From an uncultured Ruminococcus sp. (GTDB lineage: Bacteria > Bacillota > Clostridia > Oscillospirales > Ruminococcaceae), in assembly GCA_902762785.1 (NCBI GenBank), contig CACWPL010000017.1, positions 1 through 57,080 of the forward strand: a stretch of DNA of 57,080 nt, written 5' to 3'. Below the pieces are notes generated by a model. The model did no database searches and was not told where the DNA came from. It saw nothing but the letters and a program-made list of their open reading frames with translations. Made by a program: the position numbers and the translations under genes. Below are positions 6,253 through 22,413 of the stretch, in pieces (position 1 is the stretch's first letter; the number at the start of each line of letters is the position of its first letter).

Positions 6253-8091
6253 ATGTGTGGTATCGCGGGTGCGATCTCATTTCGGGAGGATATGCGGGAG
6301 CGGACGGCGGCGCTGCGGGAGATGCAGGCCGTCCTGCGCCGCCGCGGCCCCGACCAGCAGGGCATCGTTACGACGACACACGCCGGTCTCGTCCATACGC
6401 GCCTCGCCGTCATCGACCCGGAACACGGGCGCCAGCCCATGACGGTCGAACGCGCGGGCGAGCGGTTCACCATCGTCTACAACGGCGAGCTCTACAACAC
6501 CGCCGAGCTCCGCCATGCCCTCGAGGCGGCCGGTGAGACGTTCGAGACGCGGTCGGACACCGAGGTCGTCCTCCGGGCGTATGCGGTCTGGGGGGCGGCG
6601 TGCGTGGAGCGGTGCAACGGCATCTTCGCGTTCGCCGTCTGGGAGCATGAGGCAGAGCGGCTCTTCCTCGCGCGCGACCGCATGGGCGTCAAGCCGCTGT
6701 TCTATCATCTCACAGACGAACGGCTCGTGTTCGGCTCGGAGCTGAAGGCCGTCCTCGCGTGGCCGGACGTGCCGCATGAGGTCGATGCCGAGGGCGTCAG
6801 CCAGCTCATGCTCTTCGGCCCCGGCCGCAGTCCCGGATGCGGCGTGTTCCGCGGGATACGCGAGGTCAAGGCGGCACAGTGCGGCCACTATTCCCGCGCA
6901 GACGGTCTGCACCTGTGGACGTACTGGTCGCTGCGGGCACGCGAGCACAAGGACAGCTTCGCGCAGACGGCGGAGCATGTGCGCTATCTCGTGACCGACG
7001 CCATCGAACGCCAGCTCGTGAGCGATGTGCCGCTCGGGACGTTCCTCTCCGGCGGTCTGGATTCGAGCCTGATCTCGTCCGTGGCGTCGCGCATGTTCCA
7101 AAAGGAGGGGCGCGTCCTGCCGACCTTCTCGGTGGACTATCAGGGGAACGACAAGTATTTCAAGGCCTCGAAGTTCCAACCGAACAGCGACCCTGCCTAT
7201 ATCCGCCAGATGGCGGCCTACCTCGACACGGAGCACCACTGGACGGTCGTGGAGAACGACGCGCTCGTGCAGGCGCTCTACACGGCGACGGAGGCGCGCG
7301 ACCTCCCCGGCATGGCGGACGTGGACGCGTCGCTCCTGCTCTTCGCGGGGGACATCCGGCAGCATGTGACCGTCGCGCTCTCGGGGGAGTGTGCGGATGA
7401 GCTGTTCGGGGGCTATCCGTGGTACCGTGACCCGGAGATCCGGGCGGCCTACGGGTTCCCCTGGTCACAGTCGACGGCGTACCGGATGGGGCTCCTCCGG
7501 CCGGAGGTCGCGGACGTCCTAGCGGCACGCGGCGACGTCGACCGTGCCTACCGCGCGACCCTCGCCGACACGGACACTCTCCCCACGGACAGTGCGGATG
7601 CCGTCCGCATGCGCGAGATGATGCGCCTGAACACGGACTGGTTCATGCAGACCCTCCTCGACCGCAAGGACCGCATGACGATGTGGAACGCGCTCGAGGT
7701 GCGTGTCCCCTTCTGCGACTACCGGATCGCGGAGTATCTCTACAATGTCCCGTGGGAGATGAAGGAGCACGGCGGCTATGAGAAGGGGCTCCTGCGCGAG
7801 GCGATGCGGGGCTATCTCCCCGACGAGATCCTCTGGCGCAAGAAGAGCCCCTATCCCAAGACCCACGACCCCGCGTTCCGCACGGCCGTGACGCGGGAGC
7901 TGGAGGCACGTCTCGCCGACCCGCAGGCGCCGCTATGGCAGCTCGTCCGGCGAGACGCGCTCGAACGCCTCCTCTACGGCGACGAGGACGTCCAGTGGTA
8001 CGGCCAGCTCATGACGCGGCCGCAGACCATCGCCTACCTCCTCGCCCTCGACTGGTGGATGGTGCGATACGCGGTCAAGGTCGTGCTGTAA
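6253..8091 (+). CDS. asnB: Asparagine synthetase, glutamine-hydrolysing
   Basis: 612 aa. It makes asparagine from aspartate, ATP and glutamine. The start is the ATG at 6253, not the GTG nine bases earlier, because the mature enzyme must begin Met-Cys: Cys2 in MCGIAG is the glutaminase nucleophile. The class II amidotransferase domain (about 2-220) has RGPDQQG and NGEL. The synthetase domain has the ATP pyrophosphatase loop SGGLDSS (266-272) and GECADELFGGYPWY. Full length and intact. Only GAAGGGAG supports translation; no clear promoter is seen in the repeat-filled upstream gap. Confidence 0.96.
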   Translation: MCGIAGAISFREDMRERTAALREMQAVLRRRGPDQQGIVTTTHAGLVHTRLAVIDPEHGRQPMTVERAGERFTIVYNGELYNTAELRHALEAAGETFETRSDTEVVLRAYAVWGAACVERCNGIFAFAVWEHEAERLFLARDRMGVKPLFYHLTDERLVFGSELKAVLAWPDVPHEVDAEGVSQLMLFGPGRSPGCGVFRGIREVKAAQCGHYSRADGLHLWTYWSLRAREHKDSFAQTAEHVRYLVTDAIERQLVSDVPLGTFLSGGLDSSLISSVASRMFQKEGRVLPTFSVDYQGNDKYFKASKFQPNSDPAYIRQMAAYLDTEHHWTVVENDALVQALYTATEARDLPGMADVDASLLLFAGDIRQHVTVALSGECADELFGGYPWYRDPEIRAAYGFPWSQSTAYRMGLLRPEVADVLAARGDVDRAYRATLADTDTLPTDSADAVRMREMMRLNTDWFMQTLLDRKDRMTMWNALEVRVPFCDYRIAEYLYNVPWEMKEHGGYEKGLLREAMRGYLPDEILWRKKSPYPKTHDPAFRTAVTRELEARLADPQAPLWQLVRRDALERLLYGDEDVQWYGQLMTRPQTIAYLLALDWWMVRYAVKVVL

Positions 8092-16366: not shown

Positions 16367-16395
16367 TTGACTTTTGGGATAGGATCAGCTATAAT
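16367..16395 (+). promoter_or_regulatory. Sigma-A promoter of cooS
   Basis: TTGACT (16367-16372) and a perfect TATAAT (16390-16395) are 17 bp apart. A leader of about 55 nt follows, ending in the strong RBS AGGAGG. No CO- or Ni-sensor operator could be identified in the leader. Confidence 0.78.
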
Positions 16396-16453
16396 AAAAA
16401 CACGACAACGCCCATAAGTTTGCTAGGTATTAAAAACGATAGGAGGCATCTCC

Positions 16454-18568
16454 ATGGCACATGACCACGACCATGAGCATGCACATGAGCATGAGCACGA
16501 CCATGCACACGCGCATGACCATTCCCCCGCGCACATCCATTCCCACCGTGCGCTGATCGGCTTCGATGCCCACGGCATCCCGACCGTCACCCACGAAGCC
16601 GACCACCAGGATCCCGACGATCCGCAGGCCTTCATCCGTGACTACATGAACGCGGTCAGCGAGTACCGCAAGACCTTCCCCTCCAAGCAGGACGTGATCG
16701 ACCAGACGCCCGACCCCGCCGTCCGGGAGATGATCCTCCGCATGGAGCAGCTCGGCCTCGACACCACCTTCGACCGCTTCGACAAGCAGAAGCCGCAATG
16801 TCATTTCGGCCTTGCGGGCATCTGCTGCAAGATCTGCAACATGGGCCCCTGCCGCATCACGGCCAAGGCGCCGCGCGGCGTCTGCGGGGCGGATGCCGAC
16901 CTGATCGTCGCGCGCAACCTGCTGCGCAGTGCCGCCGCCGGTGCCGCCCAGCACGGGATGCACGCCCGCGAGGTGATGCTCTCGCTGAAATGGGCCGCCG
17001 AGGGCAAGCTCGACATCCCGATCATGGGCGAGCAGAAGATCCGTGACACGGCCGCGGCCTTCGGCATCCCCACCAAGCACCGCCAGGTCAAGCACATCGC
17101 CTCCGACCTCGCCGACGCCCTCCTCGAGGACCTCTCCCGCACCGTCCCCGCCGAGAACCGCACGATCCGCGCCTGTGCGCCGCCCGAGCGCCAGAAGGTC
17201 TGGGAGGATCTCGACATCCTCCCGATCAGCGCGTATCATGAGGTGTTCGAGGCCTACCACAAGTCCGGCTGCGGCACGGACGGCGACTGGAAGAGCATCC
17301 TCCAGCAGCTCCTGCGCTGCGGGCTGGCGTTCACGTTCAGCGGCGTCGTCGGGGCGAACATCGCGACGGACAGTCTCTTCGGCGTCGGCGACCGCGTGAC
17401 CTCGAAGGTCAACATCGGCGCCCTCGAGAAGGGCTATGTCAACATCGCCGTCCACGGCCATCTCCCCACGCTCGTGAGCCAGATCGTCAAGGTCGGGCAG
17501 GAGGACGCCTTCATTGAAAAGGCCAAGGCCGCCGGTGCCAAGGGAATCAAGTTCTACGGCATCTGCTGCTCGGGACTTTCGGCGATGTATCGCTACAGCG
17601 GCGTCATCCCGCTCTCGAACGCCGTCTCTGCGGAGCTGGTGCTCGCGACCGGCGCGCTCGACCTCTGGGTCGCGGACGTGCAGGACGTCTTCCCCGCCAT
17701 CATGGACGTGGCACGCTGCTTCAAGACGGCGGTCGTGACCACGAGCGAGTCCGCCCGTCTCCCCGGTGCGGAGCGCTACGAATATGACCACCGCCACGCC
17801 AACATCGGCGAGACCCGCGCCCTCGCGGAGCGCATCGTAGACCGCGCGATCGAGAGCTTTTCCGCCCGCAAGGGCATCCCGGTCTACATCCCGCCCTACG
17901 AGGTGGAGGCCGAGGTCGGGTTCTCGGTGGAATATGTCTGTCGCCGGTTCGGCAGCATGGAGCCCCTTGCGAAAGCGCTGCGCTCCGGCCAGATCCTCGG
18001 CATCGTGAACATGGTCGGGTGCAACAACCCCAAGGTGCTCTATGAGAAGTGCATCGTCGATGTCGCGGACGTCCTCCTGAAAAATAACGTCCTGATCCTG
18101 TCGAACGGATGCGCGTCCTTCCCGCTGATGAAGCTCGGCTATTGCCGCAAGGACGCCCAGCACAAGGCCGGCGACAAGCTCGCGGCCTTCCTCGGAGACG
18201 ACCTCCCGCCCGTTTGGCATGTGGGCGAGTGCATCGACAACACGCGCAGCTCCGGCATCTTCGCCGGTGTCGCGGGCGTCCTCGGGCACAAGCTCTATGA
18301 GATGCCCTATGCGTTCACGTCGCCCGAGTGGGGCAACGAGAAGGGCATCGACGCCGCGCTCGGCTTCCGCCTCATGGGCATCAGCTCCTATCACTGCGTC
18401 GAGGCGCAGATCTACGGCTCCAAGAACGTCATCGAGTTCCTGAAGGACGGCACGCGCGATCTGCTCGGCTCCGTCATGGTCGTGGATACTGACCCCGTCG
18501 CCCTCGGCGAGAAGATCGTCGCCGACATCAAGCAAAAACGCATCGCCCTCGGGTGGGACTCGGAATGA
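16454..18568 (+). CDS. cooS: Ni-Fe carbon monoxide dehydrogenase catalytic subunit, variant
   Basis: 704 aa, homologous to anaerobic CODH (CO + H2O to CO2 + 2e- + 2H+). The first 31 residues are almost entirely His/Asp/Glu/Ala (about 14 His), a metal-storage-like head absent from typical CooS. D/B-cluster cysteines C116, C124, C125, C128, C133 and C144 are present. C-cluster residues found are His334/336 in HGH, C371/C372, C523, C553, C593 and the acid-base Lys630. The position equivalent to Cys333 of C. hydrogenoformans CODH-II is Asp411 (ADVQDVFP instead of a DxQC motif). No cooC, cooF or acs gene is adjacent; an ABC transporter follows. Catalytic competence is therefore uncertain. Confidence 0.92.
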   Translation: MAHDHDHEHAHEHEHDHAHAHDHSPAHIHSHRALIGFDAHGIPTVTHEADHQDPDDPQAFIRDYMNAVSEYRKTFPSKQDVIDQTPDPAVREMILRMEQLGLDTTFDRFDKQKPQCHFGLAGICCKICNMGPCRITAKAPRGVCGADADLIVARNLLRSAAAGAAQHGMHAREVMLSLKWAAEGKLDIPIMGEQKIRDTAAAFGIPTKHRQVKHIASDLADALLEDLSRTVPAENRTIRACAPPERQKVWEDLDILPISAYHEVFEAYHKSGCGTDGDWKSILQQLLRCGLAFTFSGVVGANIATDSLFGVGDRVTSKVNIGALEKGYVNIAVHGHLPTLVSQIVKVGQEDAFIEKAKAAGAKGIKFYGICCSGLSAMYRYSGVIPLSNAVSAELVLATGALDLWVADVQDVFPAIMDVARCFKTAVVTTSESARLPGAERYEYDHRHANIGETRALAERIVDRAIESFSARKGIPVYIPPYEVEAEVGFSVEYVCRRFGSMEPLAKALRSGQILGIVNMVGCNNPKVLYEKCIVDVADVLLKNNVLILSNGCASFPLMKLGYCRKDAQHKAGDKLAAFLGDDLPPVWHVGECIDNTRSSGIFAGVAGVLGHKLYEMPYAFTSPEWGNEKGIDAALGFRLMGISSYHCVEAQIYGSKNVIEFLKDGTRDLLGSVMVVDTDPVALGEKIVADIKQKRIALGWDSE

Positions 18569-18590
18569 CGTCTCCCCCGTGGCGCTCCCA

Positions 18591-18620
18591 GACATCCGCC
18601 GCCGGGATGGCGGCGGTGTC
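18591..18620 (+). terminator. GC-rich hairpin after cooS
   Basis: GACATCCGCCGCC (18591-18603) pairs with GGCGGCGGTGTC (18609-18620). No U tract follows, so it may attenuate or stabilise rather than end transcription before the ABC genes. Confidence 0.5.
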
Positions 18621-18703: not shown

Positions 18704-19651
18704 ATGATGAGAAAGTCCAAGATCACTGCATTCCTGACCGCCCTTGCGCTCGGCGCCGCCCTGACCGGGTGCGCCCGGGACGCCGCCGCGGATACCACGT
18801 CCAAGCGGACGATCAAGATCGCCTATCTGCCGATCACCCACGCGCTGCCGGTGTTCGCCGTCAAGGAGGCGCTCGAGGCCTCAGACGACGACCTCCAGAT
18901 CGAGCTGGTGAAGTACGGCTCGTGGCCGGAGCTGCTCGACGCGCTCAACACCGGGCGCGTGGACGGCGCGTCCGTGCTGATCGAGCTGGCGATGAAGTCC
19001 CGGCAGGAGGGCATCGGCATCAAGGCCGTGGCGCTCGGCCATAAGGACGGCAATGTCATCGTCACGAACGACAGCGTGCAGACGGCCGCGGACCTCGCGG
19101 GCAAGACCTTCGCGATCCCGCACCGCCAGTCCTCCCACAACATCCTCCTCAACGACGCCCTCGCGCAGGCCGGTCTGACGATCGACGATGTCAATGTCAC
19201 CGAGCTCGCGCCGCCAGAGATGCCCTCCGCGCTCGCCTCCGGGCAGATCAACGGCTACTGCGTGGCGGAGCCGTTCGGCGCCAAGGCGGTCACGATCGAC
19301 GCGGGGCATGTGCTGTACACGTCCGAGGAGCTGTGGCCGGATTCGCTGTGCTGCGGCCTCGTCCTCACGGACAGCTACCTTGACGCGCACCATGACGATG
19401 CCGCGCATTTCGTGGCGGCCTACGAGCAGGCCGGCCGCGACCTGACACCTGACTACGCCAAGCAGATCGCCGTCGACTATCTCCAGCAGGACGAGGCCGT
19501 GCTCGACCTCTCGCTGAAATGGATCCGCTACGACGACCTTGCGATCACGCCGGAGACCTACGAGACCCTCTGCGACAAGGTGGTCGCCTATGGCCTGTCC
19601 GACGCGCCGCCGACCTATGAGGAGTTCGTGGCGAGCGGGCTCGGGGAGTGA
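18704..19651 (+). CDS. ABC transporter substrate-binding lipoprotein, SsuA/NMT1-like
   Basis: 315 aa with a lipoprotein signal ending LTGC (lipidated Cys near residue 24). A type II periplasmic-binding fold follows, with KIAYLPITHALPVFAVKEAL and VDGASVLIELAMK like SsuA, TauA, NrtA and NMT1 proteins. These bind small anionic or ring compounds (sulfonates, nitrate, thiamine precursors); the ligand here cannot be read. First gene of a three-gene ABC operon, 135 bp after cooS in the same orientation. A CODH-linked role, such as cofactor or substrate supply, is a guess from position. Confidence 0.85.
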   Translation: MMRKSKITAFLTALALGAALTGCARDAAADTTSKRTIKIAYLPITHALPVFAVKEALEASDDDLQIELVKYGSWPELLDALNTGRVDGASVLIELAMKSRQEGIGIKAVALGHKDGNVIVTNDSVQTAADLAGKTFAIPHRQSSHNILLNDALAQAGLTIDDVNVTELAPPEMPSALASGQINGYCVAEPFGAKAVTIDAGHVLYTSEELWPDSLCCGLVLTDSYLDAHHDDAAHFVAAYEQAGRDLTPDYAKQIAVDYLQQDEAVLDLSLKWIRYDDLAITPETYETLCDKVVAYGLSDAPPTYEEFVASGLGE

Positions 19652-19656
19652 GGCAG

Positions 19657-20421
19657 ATGAAGAAAACGATTCTGAAAGCGCGGTATGCCGTCATCTCGTT
19701 CATCGTGCTGATCGCGCTCTGGCAGCTCCTGTACACAGTGAGCGATTTCAATGAGGCACTGTTCCCCTCGCCCTTCAAGGCGCTGCGGGCGCTGATCGAG
19801 CTGGCGGCGGACGGCACGCTCTTCCGCCACATCGGCACGAGCCTCTACCGCTTCGCGGCGGGGTATTGCAGCGCGGTCGTCTCGGCGGTGCTGCTGGGAC
19901 TGGTGCTGGGGTGGTTCTCAAAGGCGTTCCGCTTCGTCGACCCGATCGTCCAGCTCCTGCGTCCCATCTCGCCGACGGCGTGGATGCCCTTCATCGTCCT
20001 CTGGTTCGGCATCGGGGACGTGCCGGCGATCGTCATCATCTTCATCGCGGGCTTCTTCCCGGTGCTGCTGACGACCGTGGCGGCCGTGGCGAACATCGAC
20101 CCGATCTATCTGAAGGTGTCGCGCAGCTTCGGCATCCGGCAGCCGCAGCTCATGTGGAAGGTCATCTTCCCGGCGGCCTTCCCGCAGATCGCGAGCGGCA
20201 TCCATCTGGCGCTCGGCACGAGCTGGATCTTTTTGGTGGCCGGTGAGATGGTCGGGGCACAGTCCGGCGTGGGCTATCTCATCATCGACGCACGCAATGA
20301 TCTGCGCACGGACATCCTCCTGGCAGACATCGTGGTGATCGGCCTGATCGGCCTGATCCTGGACACGCTGCTGAAGATGGCCGAAAAGCGCATCCTGAGA
20401 GCATGGGGAGGTGCCGCATGA
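19657..20421 (+). CDS. ABC transporter permease, SsuC/TauC-like
   Basis: 254 aa from the ATG at 19657, preceded by GAGG; a GTG nine bases upstream overlaps the previous stop and is less likely. Six predicted helices, with the coupling motif near FPAAFPQIASGIHLALGTSW, the BPD_transp_1 EAA loop. It forms the membrane channel for the solute delivered by the lipoprotein upstream. Its stop overlaps the ATPase start by four bases (ATGA). Confidence 0.9.
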   Translation: MKKTILKARYAVISFIVLIALWQLLYTVSDFNEALFPSPFKALRALIELAADGTLFRHIGTSLYRFAAGYCSAVVSAVLLGLVLGWFSKAFRFVDPIVQLLRPISPTAWMPFIVLWFGIGDVPAIVIIFIAGFFPVLLTTVAAVANIDPIYLKVSRSFGIRQPQLMWKVIFPAAFPQIASGIHLALGTSWIFLVAGEMVGAQSGVGYLIIDARNDLRTDILLADIVVIGLIGLILDTLLKMAEKRILRAWGGAA

Positions 20422-21191
20422 GTTTGATCGAGGTCAAGGACGCGGGCAAGACGTTCGCGCGGGACGAGGGGACGTTCACGGCCTTCGAGCACATCGACCT
20501 GTCCATCGAGCGGGGCGAGTTCATCTGCCTGCTGGGCCCGTCCGGCTGCGGCAAGAGCACGCTCCTGAACGCGATGGCAGGCTTCGACCTGGTGACGTCC
20601 GGGAGCATCGAGATCGACGGCAAAGAGGTGTGCGAGCCCTCCGACCGCTATGTCACGATCTTCCAGAACTACGGCCTGCTCCCGTGGCGGAGCGTGCAAA
20701 AGAACGTGGAGCTGGGGCTCGAGCAGAAGGGACTCTCCAAGGCAGAGCGGGCGGCGCGGGCGGCGCAGTACATCGAGCTGGTGGGACTGACGGCACACAA
20801 GGACGTCCATCCGCGGCAGCTCTCGGGCGGCATGCAGCAGCGCGTGGCGATCGCGCGGGCGCTGGCGGTCGACCCGGAGATCCTGTTCATGGATGAGCCG
20901 TTCGGCGCGCTCGACGCCATCACGCGCATGAAGCTCCAGGACGACATCCTCCGCATCTCTCGTGAGCAGCAGAAGACGATCATCTTCGTGACGCATGACA
21001 TCGAGGAGGCGGTCTATCTGGCCGACCGCATCGTGATCCTGACGCCGAATCCCGGGCGGCTCAAATGCATCTGCGAGGTGCCGCTCCATGGCTACCGCGA
21101 CCGCACCAGCGGCGATTTCCTCCGTGTGCGCGACAAGATCTTCGAGCTGTTCCACATGAAGGCGGAGAACAGGATCGAGTATTTTATCTGA
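20418..21191 (+). CDS. ABC transporter ATPase, SsuB/TauB-like
   Basis: 257 aa from the ATG at 20418, with GGGGAGGTG just upstream. All nucleotide-binding motifs are present: Walker A GPSGCGKST, Q-loop FQNYGLLPW, signature LSGGMQQRVAIARAL, Walker B ILFMDEPFGALD and switch His in VTHDIEEA. It drives import with the adjacent permease. Family members move aliphatic sulfonates, taurine, nitrate or thiamine precursors. Confidence 0.93.
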   Translation: MSLIEVKDAGKTFARDEGTFTAFEHIDLSIERGEFICLLGPSGCGKSTLLNAMAGFDLVTSGSIEIDGKEVCEPSDRYVTIFQNYGLLPWRSVQKNVELGLEQKGLSKAERAARAAQYIELVGLTAHKDVHPRQLSGGMQQRVAIARALAVDPEILFMDEPFGALDAITRMKLQDDILRISREQQKTIIFVTHDIEEAVYLADRIVILTPNPGRLKCICEVPLHGYRDRTSGDFLRVRDKIFELFHMKAENRIEYFI

Positions 21192-21197
21192 GACAGG

Positions 21198-21224
21198 CGC
21201 TCCTCCCTGCATGTGGGAGGGGCG
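21198..21224 (+). terminator. Hairpin ending the cooS-ABC cluster
   Basis: CGCTCCTCCC (21198-21207) pairs with GGGAGGGGCG (21215-21224), including one G-T wobble, shortly after the ATPase stop. The T tract is weak. Confidence 0.55.
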
Positions 21225-21231
21225 TTCCCTG

Positions 21232-21260
21232 TTGCATCCTGGCGAAAAATGTGCTATAAT
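21232..21260 (+). promoter_or_regulatory. Extended -10 promoter of the CapA-like gene
   Basis: TGcTATAAT at 21252-21260 is a perfect extended -10. TTGCAT lies 17 bp upstream (21232-21237). The gene begins 32 bp later. Confidence 0.72.
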
Positions 21261-21291
21261 AGACCTATCAACACAAAAGGGAGATCCTGCC

Positions 21292-22413
21292 ATGAAACGA
21301 CTGCTTCTCGCGGCGCTCTGCTGTCTTGGCCTGACGGCGTGCGGCACGGTGCCGACCTATCAGGAGGAGGCCGTGCTGGAGACGACTGCCGTCCCCACGA
21401 CCGTCCCCACGACCGAGGCGCCCACCGAGCCGACCACGGAGCCGGAGGTGCCGTTCGACTATACGATCTGCTTCACCGGCGACATCAGCGTCGAGGACGG
21501 CGCGCGCACCACGTCCCGCTGGATCGCGAACGGACGCGATACGTCTGCCTGCTTCGATGAAACGATGATGGCCCACATGCAGGCCGCGGACATCTGCTTT
21601 GCGAACAACGAGTTCCCCTATTCCACGCGCGGCCATGCCATCCCCAACAAGGACTACACCTACCGCGCCGACCCCGCCAATGTCCAGCTCATGCTCGACC
21701 TGGGCGTGGACATCGTGTCGCTCGCGAACAATCATATGTATGACTACGGCCCAGACGCGCTCCTCGACACGCTCGATACGCTCGACGCCGCCGGGATCGA
21801 GCGCGTGGGCGCGGGGAAGGATCTTGACGAGGCCTCGCGGACGTGCTTCATGGAGCTAGACGGCCTGACGGTCGCTTTCCTGAACGGCTCGCGCGTGGAG
21901 TGGGCGGAGCTGACGAAGGGCGCGACGGACGATTCCCCCGGCGTCTTCCGCACGGTCGACCCCACGCTGCTCTACCAGCGCGTGCGGGAGGCGCGGGAGG
22001 CCGCGGATCTCGTCATCGTCTACATGCACTGGGGCATCGAGGGCGTGGACTACCTCGAGGAGTACCAGCAGGAGGTCGGCAAGGGCCTCGTGGATGCGGG
22101 CGCGGACGCTGTGATCGGCGACCACACGCACTGTCTCCAGGGCATCGAGTTCTACAAGGGCGCGCCGATCGTCTATTCGCTCGGGAATTTTTGGTTCAAC
22201 GGCAAGACCCAGCGCACCGCCCTCGCCGAGCTGCATGTCACCGGCACGCAGTCGGACTATACCCTCTCCCTCCAGTACCTCCCCGCGATGCAGGACAACT
22301 GCCGCGTCTACACGATCACGGACACCGGCGCGCAGGATGCGTATTATCGGTATCTGGAGAGCATCTCGCCGAACGCGGTGTTCGATGGGGAGGGGAATTG
22401 TACGGAGGGGTGA
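21292..22413 (+). CDS. CapA-family lipoprotein (metallophosphatase fold)
   Basis: 373 aa from the ATG at 21292 with AAAAGGGAG upstream. A lipoprotein signal ends LTAC (Cys about 17), then a Thr/Pro-rich linker (about 25-52). The PGA_cap domain follows, with FTGDISVED, FANNEFPYS, SLANNHMYDYG, HWGIEG and GDHTHCLQG, the last resembling calcineurin-like metal ligands. CapA proteins are linked to poly-gamma-glutamate capsule synthesis, but many clostridial lipoprotein forms are uncharacterised surface phosphoesterase-like proteins. No capBC genes are adjacent, so a capsule role is not supported here. Confidence 0.85.
   Translation: MKRLLLAALCCLGLTACGTVPTYQEEAVLETTAVPTTVPTTEAPTEPTTEPEVPFDYTICFTGDISVEDGARTTSRWIANGRDTSACFDETMMAHMQAADICFANNEFPYSTRGHAIPNKDYTYRADPANVQLMLDLGVDIVSLANNHMYDYGPDALLDTLDTLDAAGIERVGAGKDLDEASRTCFMELDGLTVAFLNGSRVEWAELTKGATDDSPGVFRTVDPTLLYQRVREAREAADLVIVYMHWGIEGVDYLEEYQQEVGKGLVDAGADAVIGDHTHCLQGIEFYKGAPIVYSLGNFWFNGKTQRTALAELHVTGTQSDYTLSLQYLPAMQDNCRVYTITDTGAQDAYYRYLESISPNAVFDGEGNCTEG

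Follow-up and report, generated by a model that had tools for sequence, protein, structure and literature searches.

The 57,080-nucleotide stretch of DNA analysed here (the window), from an uncultured Ruminococcus sp., encodes a CooS-type carbon monoxide dehydrogenase (CODH) homologue of 704 amino acids (16454..18568, +), which the open reading frame list, family searches and alignment identify as being of the clade B, group B-1 type. The protein scores 489.6 bits against the NCBIfam model of the anaerobic CODH catalytic subunit (TIGR01702; cut-off 478) and 456.7 bits against the Pfam Prismane family (PF03063). Its N-terminal region is histidine-rich (16454..16549, +), with 17 histidines within residues 1-60, and a promoter-like site identified by consensus match only (TTGACT-17-TATAAT; 16367..16395, +) lies 58 bp before the start of the gene. 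An antisense open frame of 721 amino acids (16430-18595, -) spans the whole CODH gene and was not taken as a gene; long antisense frames are often seen in high-GC coding DNA. A similarly long shadow frame lies antisense to the CODH of a relative, L124.

Ligand positions were mapped onto CODH-II of Carboxydothermus hydrogenoformans from phmmer rows. The D-cluster cysteines C39 and C47 of CODH-II correspond to C116 and C124, with the motif C116-X7-C124-C125 fitting the type II spacing Cys-(X)7-13-Cys-Cys; the B-cluster cysteines C48, C51, C56 and C70 correspond to C125, C128, C133 and C144, and the acid-base pair H93 and K563 is kept as H167 and K630. The C-cluster ligands H261, C295, C333, C446, C476 and C526 align with H336, C372, D411, C523, C553 and C593, leaving the window CODH without the full set of six protein ligands, as Asp411 (codon GAC, 17684..17686, +) stands in the place of Cys333. 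The site reads VADVQDVFP against ILDYQCIQP in CODH-II and has no nearby cysteine able to substitute. The original prediction had assigned Asp411 to this position by its spacing from neighbouring ligands, and the alignment bears this out, there being no cysteine of the window protein at that place; the spacings it gave (112 vs 113, 30 vs 30 and 37 vs 37) follow from the mapped ligand numbers, and its statement that the remaining C-cluster ligands and the B- and D-cluster cysteines are kept agrees with the alignment to CODH-II. Foldseek groups the AlphaFold model of the protein with CODHs, at ~33% identity to CODH-II (1SU6/7ERR) in that alignment; the mean pLDDT is 67.5 and values fall below 50 at residues 410-412, so the Asp411 site was not read from the model.

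Structural groups B-1 to B-3 have been defined among clade B CODHs (Inoue 2019; PMC6344411). Group B-1 is described there as having a type II D-cluster, a His-rich N-terminus (4 to 48 His, in H-X-H repeats), an acidic residue (Asp or Glu) in place of the second C-cluster cysteine and the catalytic His and Lys kept, and clade B CODHs as accompanying NitT/TauT ABC genes, with the proposal that the transporter brings in a metal, nickel for instance, which the His-rich tail would receive. The window protein has the His-rich N-terminus (17 His in 60 residues), the type II D-cluster, NitT/TauT ABC neighbours, the conserved His and Lys and an Asp at the second C-cluster cysteine, and no feature distinguishing it from group B-1 was found. 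In a 39-row tree, in which CODH-II is the sole named reference enzyme, the Asp group, a set of 12 sister proteins considered below and 10 canonical rows each form one side of a 100/100 branch. By its features, the window CODH very probably belongs to clade B, group B-1, and the Cys333 to Asp substitution, published in 2019, is not in itself a new observation. In a 2026 genome-context study, 64% of clade B operons contained ABC genes and maturases were almost absent; its text describes the characterisation of any clade B CODH as still awaited and function as not deducible from context (PMC13056359).

The adjoining transporter

Downstream of the CODH gene and in the same orientation come genes for an ABC substrate-binding protein of the NitT/TauT type (18704..19651, +; gap 135 bp) and, identified by family search, a permease (19648..20421, +) and an ATPase (20403..21191, +). 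The ends of the ABC genes overlap, and no promoter-like site was found on the + strand between the CODH and binding-protein genes. A PGA_cap (CapA-like) gene (21211-22413, +) begins 19 bp after the ATPase gene.

The best 80 of 250 confirmed stretches from a scan of named genomes were taken as loci L002-L081. The CapA-like gene has no match in the DNA of these best 80 of 250 relatives and therefore probably lies outside the system. Within the DNA examined, the binding-protein gene is on the same strand as the CODH gene in 72 of the 80 (47 upstream, 25 downstream); of the eight relatives without it, L047, L061 and L069 have ~6 kb on both sides and the sequence of the other five is cut short on one or both sides. 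No known RNA element exceeded its gathering score in the window, and a scan of 10 of the 80 relatives (best 80 of 250) returned only one tRNA and one RAGATH-18 RNA, the latter over its gathering score between the transporter permease and ATPase genes of one locus (L022:9544-9605).

The nearest solved relative of the binding protein is 3UN6 of Staphylococcus aureus, which has zinc bound. The 18 sequences compared and 3UN6 all share H113, H145, E189, C216 and C217, which suggests a metal or metal-assisted site in the binding protein. The alignment of this protein (A2) kept 25 of 30 sequences, with L046, L050, L056, L066 and L078 left out and L032 trimmed by one codon. The protein falls below the NCBIfam cut-offs for SsuA_fam (110 vs 163.5), taurine (37.1 vs 304.25) and SaoX (58.7 vs 300). 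At E 1e-45, with up to five candidates scored per genome, 18 of 398 genomes drawn from the phylum encode the binding protein; it was missing at that threshold from five of eight distant genomes with Asp-type CODHs and present in two genomes without any CODH match (G464 and G278). Both CODH-free copies (L167 and L168) lie beside an acyl-CoA-dehydrogenase-like gene, an HxlR-type regulator (family scan at L167 only) and a PF14026 'nickel responsive' family gene. Methionine-synthesis genes, which might have pointed to a sulfur substrate of the transporter, lie at L167 but not at L168 and were for that reason left out of account.

Fixed aspartate and altered pocket

Asp occupies the Cys333 place in all 80 loci L002-L081 (best 80 of 250), the other 13 tabulated cluster and catalytic positions being identical in every row of this set, and in 8/8 distant Asp-group loci (L120-L127) from other families of the phylum. 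Close homologues, which had been suggested as a check on the original prediction, thus share the residue, and its occurrence in 80/80 of these best 80 of 250 loci indicates that it is not a sequencing slip. Asp is present in 89 of the 90 rows of the full alignment, in which the window (L001) is counted twice, as is at least one other genome (L083 is the same place as L004); the sole row with Cys, L082, belongs to a different CODH family and has an acetyl-CoA synthase on the same contig. The substitution is therefore fixed throughout the relatives examined and characterizes a whole published group rather than a lone oddity. In the genus of the window, 13 of 37 genomes have a full-length CODH match over the cut-off and one more has a partial match; own-genus CODHs whose sequence was read, the window included, are all of the Asp type (8/8).

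The remaining cluster ligands and catalytic residues are invariant across 28 aligned sequences, and dN is far below dS in close pairs (L002/L040, dN 0.035 and dS 1.10; L074/L077, 0.058 and 1.68; L026/L028, 0.009 and 0.084; L005/L006, 0.003 and 0.109), dS being saturated between the window and five of six relatives compared. The window CODH gene is apparently intact and under purifying selection. Three clade B CODHs 80-81% identical to that of the window (L046, L060 and L076) come from bins labelled Planctomycetaceae, Thermoguttaceae and Spirochaetales, a placement reflecting either gene transfer or misbinned contigs.

We compared 15 rows of the Asp group with 10 rows of canonical CODHs and found 47 aligned positions that are fixed or nearly fixed and different between them. 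The Asp group has Phe for Asp219, Ala for Ile567 and Glu for Ser525, which is beside ligand Cys526, and the complete-ligand group linked to cysK has Tyr, Gln and Gly at these respective positions. As read from the alignment, the pocket is altered in both clade B groups, with or without Cys333. The original prediction that a lost cysteine ligand goes together with a reshaped active site is accordingly supported by C333D plus Phe, Ala and Glu at 219, 567 and 525. Solved CODH-II variants in the Foldseek listing are, by title, I567A/T/L, K563A/H, H93A and C295D, indicating that Ile567, Lys563, His93 and Cys295 have drawn attention in CODH-II. Asp-ligated [4Fe-4S] clusters occur elsewhere, so Asp411 may still hold iron. 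Loss of CO activity or a different reaction, as first suggested, is possible. Our literature searches found nothing on the Rhodospirillum rubrum CODH with C338A and nothing pairing Ile567 and Asp219 with CODH, and for Cys333 they found only a paper on class III hybrid-cluster protein (HCP).

Cysteine-synthesis genes beside clade B CODHs

From a draw of 398 genomes of the phylum the 30 best matches were taken, comprising the window, 8 of the Asp type, 12 complete-ligand proteins grouping with the Asp type and 9 others (L119, with an extracted open reading frame of 4 amino acids, was left out of the ligand table and the tree). The larger regions of the 20 nearest were chosen before any cysK was known there. 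In the complete-ligand sister group, cysK lies directly upstream of the CODH gene, at 13-192 bp, in 12/12 loci, and binding protein, permease and ATPase lie on the other side of the CODH in 10/10 of those with long enough contigs. The two sister-group cysK genes that were scanned (L129 and L132) both pass TIGR01139. In the flanks, ~1.5 kb or less, of 13 comparison CODH loci (L082, L111-L119 and L143-L145) neither cysK nor the binding-protein gene was found; nine of the 13 were read with a complete ligand set, and three are second CODHs from the same genomes.

The 12 sister proteins (L128-L139; probably group B-4, cf. Calderihabitans cooS4, PMC7306483) are 36-39% identical to the window protein and share with it the same binding-protein type of transporter beside the CODH, but unlike the window they have Cys at 333, cysK directly upstream and only 0-2 His in 60 residues. 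As cysK also accompanies this Cys type, the cysteine-synthesis link is probably older than the Asp substitution. Pieces of the link are in print: Calderihabitans cooS4 is reported in a cysteine synthase and ABC transporter context and does not figure among the cooS genes induced by CO (PMC7306483); cysteine synthase has also been noted as a minor context of CODH, mainly in Megasphaera (PMC11338639). The term 'cysteine synthase' is absent from the main text of PMC6344411, and 'cysteine' from the main text of PMC13056359 and from PMC8776680, supplementary tables being outside the scope of these statements. The quantified link is new here, with no claim that it is wholly absent from the literature.

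Sulfur genes at the best 80 of 250 loci, many of them short, were counted by tblastn at more than 100 bits, giving cysteine synthase in 11, an O-acetylhomoserine (OAH) sulfhydrylase-like gene in 13, a C-S-lyase-like aminotransferase in 4 (by Pfam only class I/II) and a ThiS/MoeB-like gene in 4. At least one of the four types occurs at 17 of these best 80 of 250 loci and none at the other 63; a CysE-like stretch is also present in L015 and L018. We then located OAH sulfhydrylase and cysteine synthase genes over their NCBIfam cut-offs, together with CODHs, in 50 whole genomes. This count leaves out 30 of the 80 loci, excludes the canonical CODH of G108 and keeps both G102 (471.4 bits, just under the CODH cut-off) and an unread second high-scoring copy of G108. 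Among the resulting 51 clade B copies, 17 have cysK or OAH sulfhydrylase within 16 kb (2.03 expected from gene density) and 11 within 7 kb (0.89 expected), nominal Poisson values being too small since the genomes are related; 34/51 have neither gene within 16 kb. L120 and L122, both with Asp-type CODHs and from a single genus, show the order cysE-cysK-CODH, and the cysE of L120 passes TIGR01172. No cysK, OAH sulfhydrylase or ThiS/MoeB-like gene was found near the CODH in the window, and the cysK genes over the cut-off in its genome are on contigs 1, 10 and 12, away from the CODH.

Several other genes recur near clade B CODHs. Two small membrane-like proteins of ~130 and 103 amino acids with no Pfam match (L003:5237-5632 and L031:411-722) are encoded within a few hundred bases of the CODH in 35 and 36 of 80 loci, respectively (tblastn; best 80 of 250), and are possible CODH partners; they were not seen beside the CODH in the window. 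Nitrogenase-component-1-like genes lie near the CODHs of L080 (55-1353) and L081 (132-1331), both with a PF00148 match, of L072 and L075, and of L137 (1644-4485), where the NCBIfam nitrogenase-like matches are far under cut-off; nitrogenase-like enzymes are reported to cleave C-S bonds (PMC12552129). Upstream of their CODH genes, L005 (740-3701) and L006 carry genes resembling larB, larE and larC, which serve to make the nickel-pincer cofactor; they were named by eye, the larC-like gene being matched by tblastn in both, and would fit a nickel link. In L125 an MFS transporter gene (6587-7801) just precedes an Asp-type CODH gene lacking ABC genes, and matches the NCBIfam L-lactate MFS transporter (331 vs cut-off 320) of the oxalate/formate antiporter family. 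No ferredoxin-like cluster stood out as an electron partner among the multi-locus neighbours, of which a minority had a family scan.

Possible role and comparison with known systems

In the genome of the window, which is 92% complete, no second CODH, acetyl-CoA synthase, HypA or CbiM-type transporter was found, making a Wood-Ljungdahl role for the window CODH unlikely; no HCP was found there either. The reading that we favour, tentatively and at somewhat less than even chances, is a sulfur-linked, non-CO role. It draws on the cysK beside 12/12 sister CODHs, the cysE-cysK-CODH loci and the 17 of 51 copies near a sulfur gene against 2.03 expected, on the pocket residues at Asp219 and Ile567, which are changed in the two clade B groups alike, and on Calderihabitans cooS4, which has cysK and ABC genes and is reported as not CO-induced (PMC7306483). 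Against it are the window itself, with no adjoining sulfur gene, and the 34 of 51 copies with neither gene within 16 kb, as well as the CODH-free transporter copies, which lie by a 'nickel responsive' gene and only once by methionine genes, and the scores of the binding protein under the sulfonate and taurine family cut-offs. The cysK gene could instead serve Fe-S cluster or metal-ligand supply.

Under the sulfur-linked reading, the protein would be a live two-electron reductase and not a CO-respiring CODH. Electrons would enter via the conserved D- and B-clusters and reach a C-cluster with one Asp-ligated, more labile iron, set in a changed pocket that retains the His/Lys acid-base pair. Sulfide would be freed there by reduction of a small sulfur compound and then fixed by cysteine synthase or O-acetylhomoserine sulfhydrylase, with the transporter supplying either the sulfur compound or metal. 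The Asp would have come later, adjusting the site rather than bringing about the new role. This specific chemistry is quite unlikely as spelled out, and COS or another sulfur analogue of CO2 is a guess at the substrate; COS inhibits the R. rubrum CODH (PMC6008375), which makes such analogues reasonable guesses and no more. Extended to clade B as a whole, with Cys or Asp at 333, the proposal would make these CODHs a branch that serves sulfur assimilation: sulfide released at the C-cluster from a small imported sulfur compound would feed cysteine or homocysteine synthesis, and in the Asp form nature would have adapted an Asp-ligated C-cluster to this task. That too is unlikely, if less so than the chemistry in detail.

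A CO/CO2 oxidoreductase, perhaps slow, with a C-cluster that tolerates Asp, an ABC transporter importing nickel and a His-rich tail delivering it, is doubtful but is the strongest of the alternatives. It would account for the 17 His in the N-terminal 60 residues, the conserved His93 and Lys563, the resemblance of the binding protein to zinc-bound 3UN6 with invariant H113, H145, E189, C216 and C217, and the PF14026 'nickel responsive protein' gene beside both CODH-free transporter copies; with neither CbiM-type transporter nor HypA found in its genome, a nickel source would also be required. However, it leaves the cysK by 12/12 sister CODHs and the cysE-cysK-CODH order unexplained, five of eight distant Asp-type genomes are without such a transporter at E 1e-45 and two genomes have the transporter without a CODH, clade B operons are reported to be almost without maturases (PMC13056359), pocket residues are changed, and acetyl-CoA synthase was not found in the genome. 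Nickel might be what the transporter imports even if the CODH itself works in sulfur metabolism, or the nickel explanation could hold throughout.

An Fe/S/O hybrid-cluster enzyme like CooS-V or HCP, acting in hydroxylamine or NO reduction or in redox sensing, is improbable. A C-cluster cysteine is lost, the superfamily is the same, no HCP was found in the genome, and one ligand exchange can yield such a cluster, as in CooS-V (PMC9311411); yet CooS-V and HCP have Glu at Cys295 and Cys at Cys333 while the window keeps Cys295, His93 is kept in the window and is Tyr in group D-1, CooS-V is itself reported as a poor hydroxylamine reductase (PMC9311411), and no nitrogen-oxide genes recur among the neighbours. 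Very improbable is a CODH that has lost catalysis through degeneration or has a structural task alone. A degenerate function, which PMC13056359 considers possible, would fit the lost ligand and scarce maturases but not the invariance of the other ligands and catalytic residues in 28 aligned sequences, nor a dN far below dS in pairs with readable dS.

The cysteine-synthesis link offers a hypothesis that can be tested for this orphan branch, which occurs here in many rumen and gut bacteria. Should the sulfur-linked reading be true, surveys in which clade B genes are taken to indicate CO use would be counting enzymes of sulfur metabolism, and in the Asp-ligated C-cluster nature would have provided an experiment on how a single ligand sets cluster chemistry.

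Methylthio-alkane reductase is an earlier case of C-S bond cleavage by an enzyme with a complex metallocluster, but it is nitrogenase-like and unrelated to the CODH protein, a likeness without an experimental link (PMC12552129). CooS-V of C. hydrogenoformans (group D-1) resembles the window protein in having the CODH fold and an acidic residue in place of one C-cluster cysteine, and is reported to have no CO activity and slow hydroxylamine reduction (PMC9311411). Its exchange is of Cys295 to Glu, whereas the window has Cys333 to Asp with Cys295 kept as C372, and the type III D-cluster (Cys-X-X-Cys-(X)5-Cys) and Tyr for His93 of group D-1 (PMC6344411) are absent in the window, which has type II spacing and H167. 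In class III HCP, too, Glu stands at the Cys295 position and a cysteine at that of Cys333 (PMC10502027), a pattern reversed in the window (C372 and D411). The likeness to altered-cluster CODH relatives drawn in the original prediction therefore stands for the loss of a cluster ligand and not for its place, as CooS-V and HCP differ at Cys295 and not at Cys333; with the opposite exchange, the window protein is, by its ligands, neither. Canonical CODH-II (1SU6/7ERR) shares with it the fold and all ligands but one, its Cys333, Asp219, Ile567 and Ser525 being replaced in the Asp group by Asp, Phe, Ala and Glu.
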